Shown here: positions 16,722 to 48,242 of the stretch, in pieces | Numbering within the stretch: position 1 is the stretch's first letter | How the letters are laid out: each line of letters begins with the position of its first letter | NCBI GenBank assembly: GCA_027307165.1 | Contig: DAHUXM010000018.1 | Location: 1-64,000, forward strand | Source: Gemmatimonadota bacterium | GTDB taxonomy: Bacteria > Gemmatimonadota > Gemmatimonadetes > Gemmatimonadales > Gemmatimonadaceae | DNA: 64,000 nt | Direction of reading: 5' to 3' | The notes under the pieces: generated by a model | Databases searched by the model: none | Told to the model about the DNA's origin: nothing | What the model saw: only the letters and a program-made list of their open reading frames with translations | Position numbers and translations under genes: made by a program

Positions 16722-16910
16722 GAGGTCAGTCGTGGGACTGGATTCAGTTTGTGTCGCTGGGGTCAGTTTGTGTCGCTGGAATCTGTTTGTGGCACTGGGA
16801 CCCGTTGTGGCGATGGAACCAGTGCTGATACGGAAATCAGTGCTGATACGGAAGTCAGTGCTGATACTGGAACCAGTGCACTGGAATCAGTTGAACCTCT
16901 GGGTTCAGTT
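16722..16910. repeat. Tandem array of about ten 18-bp imperfect palindromic units
   Basis: Successive units end in CAGT or a close variant with a period of 17-19 bases. Examples are GCTGATACGGAAATCAGT, GCTGATACGGAAGTCAGT and GCTGATACTGGAACCAGT in a row. Most units contain an ACTGG-NN-CCAGT-like dyad, and the array drifts in sequence from one end to the other. It lies upstream of aroC and 7 bases from the transposase element. Short open frames across it are products of the repetition. It looks like an array of binding sites or a decayed satellite. Confidence 0.75.
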
Positions 16911-16917
16911 GCTTTAG

Positions 16918-16960
16918 GGAATGACAGGCACGGATGCATCCGTGCCCCACCTGCGCGAAC
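16918..16960 (+). repeat. Left inverted end with REP-like palindrome
   Basis: 43 bases identical, inverted, to 17513-17555. The palindrome occupies 16927-16946 and has a central ATGCAT. Similarity continues outward beyond the exact match, through GTTGCTTTA on this side and its near-copy on the other. Confidence 0.9.
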
Positions 16961-16979
16961 GTCGACGCGCTGATCTAAT

Positions 16980-17435
16980 TCAGGAAGCGCGCATTGGATT
17001 CGCGAGGATGTAGTGTCGTATGCTCGTGAATGACTCTGGGTTATCGATGATGCGATCATGAAAGCTCTACTGCCAGACACTGGCGCGCAGGTAGCGGCTC
17101 GCATGGATTTCACGAGATGCACGCTGCTTCACCCAGCCGATGACATTGCTCAGGGTATATCGGCGATCCGCATCCCCTGAAAACACAACTATCGCGTGGA
17201 GGTGATCCGGCTTGATGACGAGCGTATCAACCGACACACTCCGAAAACGGTCCGGAATCATGTCCCAGTATCGCCGGACTATCTCACCACTCGGCGTCAG
17301 CTTCACACCGCGCCCGGTCAGTGCACCGAGAATCGGCCTGCGCTCGGCGGTCACCATCGTGACAAAATACGAACCTGGTTGCCCATAATCGTATGATTGA
17401 CGTCGCAGAGGTATCCGCGGATGGAATGGTCGCAT
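16980..17435 (-). pseudogene. REP-associated tyrosine transposase (Y1/HUH), interrupted by TAG
   Basis: Residues 1-122 carry the RAYT N-terminus (SYDYGQPGSYFVTMVTAERR) and the HUH motif as HLH in VIKPDHLHAIVVF. The sequence ends VWQ at a TAG (17067-17069). Reading on in the same frame gives 28 more residues, SFHDRIIDNPESFTSIRHYI and then LANPMRAS, before a TGA at 16980. This is the expected RAYT C-terminal helix with its NP motif, so a single nonsense codon, not a frameshift, splits an otherwise full-length gene of about 151 codons. Unless the amber is read through, the product loses its C-terminal helix. It lies between the inverted ends and close to both. Confidence 0.8.
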
Positions 17436-17512
17436 ACCGATCGAATATCATGGTAGCGACCACTGACCGACTAAGCCCAGCCTGTCTAACGTGCCCAAAA
17501 TCGCGCCTGGAT

Positions 17513-17555
17513 GTTCGCGCAGGTGGGGCACGGATGCATCCGTGCCTGTCATTCC
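17513..17555 (-). repeat. Right inverted end with REP-like palindrome
   Basis: Exact reverse complement of 16918-16960. The palindrome is at 17527-17546, upstream of the transposase start. Confidence 0.9.
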
Positions 17556-17557
17556 AT

Positions 17558-17599
17558 AAAGCAACCCAGTTCGGCGTCAAAGCAACCGAGTTCGGCGTC
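17558..17599 (+). repeat. Two tandem 21-bp direct repeats outside the right end
   Basis: 17558-17578 and 17579-17599 differ at one base (AAAGCAACCCAG against AAAGCAACCGAG, then TTCGGCGTC in both). They begin with the AAAGCAAC sequence that also borders the left inverted end in the opposite orientation. Confidence 0.75.
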
Positions 17600-48222: not shown

Positions 48223-48242
48223 GGCACGGATGCATCCGTGCC
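48223..48242. repeat. Solo copy of the 20-bp REP-like palindrome
   Basis: GGCACGGATGCATCCGTGCC, identical to the palindrome in both ends of the transposase element, and followed like one of them by CCAC. It lies in the leader region of the ECF σ gene. Confidence 0.9.

Follow-up and report, generated by a model that had tools for sequence, protein, structure and literature searches.

A REPtron with a probably inactivated RAYT gene in a Gemmatimonadota genome

The window, a 64-kb stretch of DNA from a 3.7-Mb Gemmatimonadota genome (G000), contains a gene for a REP-associated tyrosine transposase (RAYT) between two inverted REPs, and this unit is an ordinary REPtron of the known kind, a small piece of selfish DNA. 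We consider it probable that it is a REPtron whose RAYT has been inactivated and whose history was the one proposed below. G000 was compared with a sister species (G002) and with two more distant congeners (G001 and G003). The main use of the unit is that sister species show gain, loss and silencing of REPtrons. It also adds Gemmatimonadota, a phylum that had no mention in the three RAYT/REP surveys searched for it, to the phyla with well-formed REPtrons.

Results

Layout of the unit

The original prediction of 43-bp exact reverse-complement ends, each with a perfect 20-bp palindrome, was borne out. Sequence comparison and a repeat search of the window both gave an inverted match of 43/43 between 16918-16960 and 17513-17555, lying inside 63-nt arms that match at 94%. 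Both arms contain the self-complementary 20-mer GGCACGGATGCATCCGTGCC, which, with up to three mismatches allowed, occurs three times in the window, each time exactly, against 0.01 expected. When folded as single strands, each arm formed a hairpin at the palindrome (-9.7 kcal/mol, z -2.1). GTGG abuts the palindrome in both arms, and the two tags point inward. The unit thus has two inverted REPs, each with a tag of the GT(A/G)G type, on either side of a RAYT gene. The features are as follows.

16908..16970, minus strand: left REP arm, 63 nt, 94% complementary to the right arm, with the perfect 43-nt part at 16918-16960
16927..16946, no strand: left REP palindrome, perfect 20 bp, GGCACGGATGCATCCGTGCC (from the sequence and the repeat search)
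16947..16950, minus strand: left GTGG (GTRG) tag, abutting the 5' foot of the palindrome as read on the minus strand and lying towards the inside of the unit
16980..17435, minus strand: RAYT (TnpA-REP, Y1/HUH) gene, a 151-codon frame with one amber codon and its own stop at 16980-16982
17010..17012, minus strand: predicted catalytic tyrosine codon (Y of HYILANP), downstream of the TAG, aligned to 4er8
17067..17069, minus strand: in-frame TAG, at a place where relatives read W-Q-R-S-F-H-D-R
17196..17204, minus strand: HUH motif (HLH in PDHLHA), upstream of the TAG
17503..17565, plus strand: right REP arm, with the perfect 43-nt part at 17513-17555
17523..17526, plus strand: GTGG tag of the right REP (from the sequence)
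17527..17546, no strand: right REP palindrome, perfect 20 bp (from the sequence and the repeat search)
48223..48242, minus strand: solitary third REP of the family in the window, outside the unit, with an orthologous REP in G002

Left of the unit, at 16738-16880, the window has tandem repeats of 18-19 bp (CTGGATTCAGTTTGTGTCG and CAGTGCTGATACGGAAAT); the CTGGATTCAGTTTGTGTCG kind was also seen in G002.

The RAYT gene and its stop codon

The only coding sequence between the arms had been predicted to encode a RAYT, and a profile search that found it unrelated to RAYTs was named as what would overturn the prediction. The search returned a RAYT match: the NCBIfam model REP_Tyr_transpos aligned over 132 residues (E=4e-18, 65.7 bits), below its curated cut-off of 80, as was likewise the case for the three intact congeneric RAYTs scanned. 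Pfam Y1_Tnp scored 26.6 bits against a cut-off of 23 for the gene read through its stop. The match to the solved TnpA-REP structure 4er8 was weak (E=0.32), and in it the tyrosine of HYILANP aligns with the first Y of DYIYINP (Y115 by our own count).

Apart from the TAG, the RAYT frame is open as far as ...YILANPMRAS*. The description of the gene as a remnant was therefore right but mild, one in-frame TAG being the whole of the damage to an otherwise open frame. The TAG precedes the tyrosine codon, so that HUH motif and tyrosine do not fall in one protein, and a 122-residue product would carry no nucleophile. We therefore classed the unit as a decayed REPtron and not as an active one. As read in one genome, the RAYT is predicted to be disabled by this single stop codon; intact RAYT relatives are present in the genus.

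The REP family in the genus

The palindrome had been expected to be multicopy, and it proved to be so. Its core was found with up to two mismatches at 37 sites in the G000 genome, against none for a reversed control, and REPs of the same kind are thus dispersed at many sites in G000. Most dispersed copies carry a GTAG or GTGG tag and are directional, with GTGG directly at one end of the stem and TGTCA after the other. A search of G001 and G003 for the REP family of the unit gave no match. A related GTAG-GGCGCGGATNNNTCCGCGCC set has 56 copies in G000, 53 in G002, nine in G001 and two in G003. In gene-less inverted REP doublets up to 500 bp apart, taken from the GTAG listing and counted by hand, the tags pointed outward in all 11 of 11.

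Orthologous REPs of the family occupy at least nine loci common to G000 and G002. Adjacency of gene and REPs alone suggests that the window RAYT, or an allele of it, served them.

Comparison with known systems

Two inverted REPs, one on either side of the gene, are characteristic of RAYTs (PMC2817692), and a REP is defined by a GT(A/G)G head and a palindrome (PMC2817692, PMC3686654). The label 'REPtron-like' in the original prediction was apt, since a RAYT, inverted GTRG-tagged REPs and a dispersed REP family were all found. The unit shares with published REPtrons (PMC2817692, PMC8266576, PMC6006769) a RAYT with an HUH motif and a single tyrosine, two inverted GT(A/G)G-tagged REPs with a perfect stem, and REPs dispersed in the genome with one RAYT per REP type. 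It differs in that the RAYT is stopped, and in that each genome has several different REPtrons that are present or absent between sister species. Like the Group 3 REPtron of Stenotrophomonas maltophilia (REP-Sm, PMC8266576), it has a tetranucleotide tag directly before a perfect stem; the REP-Sm stem is 8 bp with a 3-nt loop, whereas here the 20-mer is fully self-complementary.

IS200/IS605 elements (TnpA-Y1) belong to the same Y1/HUH superfamily and also have palindromes at both ends, but the profile match to them was weak (17.9 bits against a cut-off of 55), and the ends of the present unit are inverted copies of dispersed REPs. An ordinary IS200/IS605 element was ruled out, as near-identical copies of the whole element were not found and the closest RAYT in the genome is 48% identical. 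TIRYT genes (PMC3733652) similarly encode a tyrosine transposase between inverted repeats; their terminal inverted repeats are unrelated to REPs, whereas those of the unit are GTRG-tagged REPs.

Other REPtrons of the genus

Four other RAYT loci lie between inverted REPs, one in G000 (contig C25) and three in G002 (C5, C1 and C6). Their palindromes are 616 (C25), 616 (C5), 615 (C1) and 655 bp (C6) apart, centre to centre, compared with 600 bp in the window unit, and the tags face inward in all four, as in the window. The score of the flanking inverted repeat was 28-135 at these loci and 51 at the window unit, versus at most 11 at mismatched loci. The four central bases of the palindrome are equal in both arms of a unit and different between units (TTCT, TTTA, TCCT and TGCA), TGCA being also the core of the window unit. 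The TCCT core was absent from the G000 list and occurred four times in G002, two of the four within the G002 REPtron that has this core.

Identity between the window RAYT and the relatives found does not exceed 50% (closest in G000, 48%). No close copy of the whole unit was found in G000 or G002 (best RAYT at most 50% at the amino acid level), and a genome_contigs scan in which the window RAYT was the sole query returned no relative. Of the predicted recurrence of the layout, the part that stood is these four loci; a second copy of the window unit did not appear, and we therefore see no sign of recent whole-unit mobility.

Mirrored 60-bp tandem arrays lie on both sides of the C25 REPtron. The G000 contigs that match the C6 REPtron of G002, C31 and C33 (L190, L066), end in its repeats, and REP arrays are the probable cause of this assembly break.

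Probable loss and inverted segments at other REPtron loci

Contig C7 of G000 lacks the C5 REPtron of G002: its two flanks, each with a 95% match, are joined there at a 5-bp microhomology, ATCGG, as a deletion between the arms would predict. What remains in G000 is a bare palindrome composed of the outer portions of both arms; in the outgroups, the flanks lie on different contigs. The inverted repeat of G002 is unbroken across the junction, which makes a deletion in G000, from one ATCGG copy to the other, a better reading than an insertion in G002. This locus supports loss through the arms as a real route.

A second locus, C25 of G000 (L051) and C1 of G002 (L153), has co-linear flanks (95% and 90%) around a cassette that is inverted and 77% identical, with a synonymous divergence of 0.82 in the RAYT. 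Orthologous RAYTs have been reported to evolve fast (PMC2817692). Either the cassette may have flipped by exchange between its arms, with fast evolution of the RAYT, or one REPtron may have replaced another. A further inverted segment of 327 bp (L053:2010-2336 versus L155:1537-1863, 86%) lies between otherwise co-linear flanks and adjoins another RAYT relative.

The orthologous site and its alternative explanations

Empty sites in relatives had been proposed as a comparison, and the unit was indeed absent from the orthologous sites of G002, G001 and G003. Chorismate synthase is 97% identical between G002 and G000, and the flanks of the site align at 89-95% in G002. There ~46 unrelated bases stand in place of the sequence from 16908 to ~17581 (~675 bases), and the site does not amount to a clean scar. 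The complete intergenic interval measures ~115-175 bp in G001 and G003. G002 has the whole of an 8-bp stem, GTTGAACC/GGTTCAAC, which is truncated in G000. Loss in G002 is the simplest history for this site; an insertion in G000 alone is possible, given the full left stem of G002 and the want of a clean scar there.

Insertion of the whole REP-RAYT-REP unit in the G000 lineage in recent time, by transposition of the unit or by horizontal transfer, nevertheless seems unlikely to us. The empty sites of the three relatives would agree with it, as would the left breakpoint (16907/16908), which is the end of the 63-nt arm, and the stem GTTGAACCtctGGGTTCAAC, which G002 has in full and which is interrupted in G000. 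Against this stand the lack of a close copy of the unit noted above, the cognate REPs that were already at common sites before G000 and G002 split, and the fact that a target duplication is not visible. Nor do the 43 identical bases mark a recent event, as had been argued from the premise that HUH elements lack inverted ends: inverted REP flanks define RAYTs, and the arms of the four related loci range from 28 to more than 160 nt (166 nt at the longest). We find it doubtful, too, that entire REPtrons, the RAYT together with its two REP ends, are gained and lost as units among sister species of the genus. According to published descriptions, REPtrons do not move as units (PMC6006769), and RAYTs are single-copy genes passed on vertically (PMC8049555); unit-wise gain and loss, if true, would contradict that view. 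The presence and absence seen between sister species is mildly at odds with both reports, but loss explains it without transposition of the unit.

The likeness of the arms is a narrower matter. Ongoing exchange between them, by inversion or gene conversion and independent of any transposase, is compatible with the REPtron explanation, bears only on this likeness, and is in our judgement quite possible, if somewhat short of probable. The arms of the window unit match each other at 83% over 76 nt, nearer than any dispersed copy matches either arm (at most 70%), and the C25/C1 cassette stands in opposite orientation between co-linear flanks. That cassette could, however, be a replacement by another REPtron, given its low identity and synonymous divergence, and the arm pair of the window could be two copies made together. 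The gene conversion between copies suggested in the original prediction thus stays plausible as homogenisation, alongside an origin of the arms as a pair. An inverted repeat that arose by chance or in the assembly, beside an unrelated gene, has a negligible probability; it was ruled out by the 0.01 palindromes expected per window, the repetition across the family and the RAYT profile match.

Proposed history and significance

From the known biochemistry of the family, the intact RAYT presumably bound the hairpins that GTRG-tagged REPs form in single-stranded DNA, cut beside them with its tyrosine, and copied its cognate REPs into new intergenic sites. The unit most likely entered the lineage after the split from G001 and G003 and seeded REPs at sites that G000 and G002 still have in common. 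It would then have been lost from G002, and the unit in G000 would have taken a stop before the catalytic tyrosine, leaving orphan REPs. A gain before the G000/G002 split, followed by spread and loss, fits the absence of the unit from G002 together with the at least nine common REP loci, and the absence of both unit and REPs from G001 and G003. The arms, being REP copies, may have been kept alike by their paired origin, by selection for as long as the RAYT was functional, or by exchange with each other.

These loci bear on the origin, spread and death of RAYT/REP systems, whose RAYTs are described as stable single-copy genes. The genus shows several stages together: intact REPtrons, each with REP cores of its own, a REPtron carrying one nonsense mutation, a sister-species site without the unit, and a REPtron of which a bare palindrome is left. 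A published model (PMC3686654) expects a stage of pseudogenised RAYTs with orphan REPs.

Repeats around dispersed REPs

Some GTAG REPs (L055, L057, L060, L068 and others) sit within a GTCATTCCCGC...CGGGAATCCATG repeat, where the REP resembles a loop inserted into another palindromic repeat family; the outer repeat seems also to be present without the REP (GTCATTCCCGCGAAAGC). Directly outside one REP pair (L049:1670-1900) lies a tandem array of ~18-bp, AAATGCAATCGTGGCCTG-like units.
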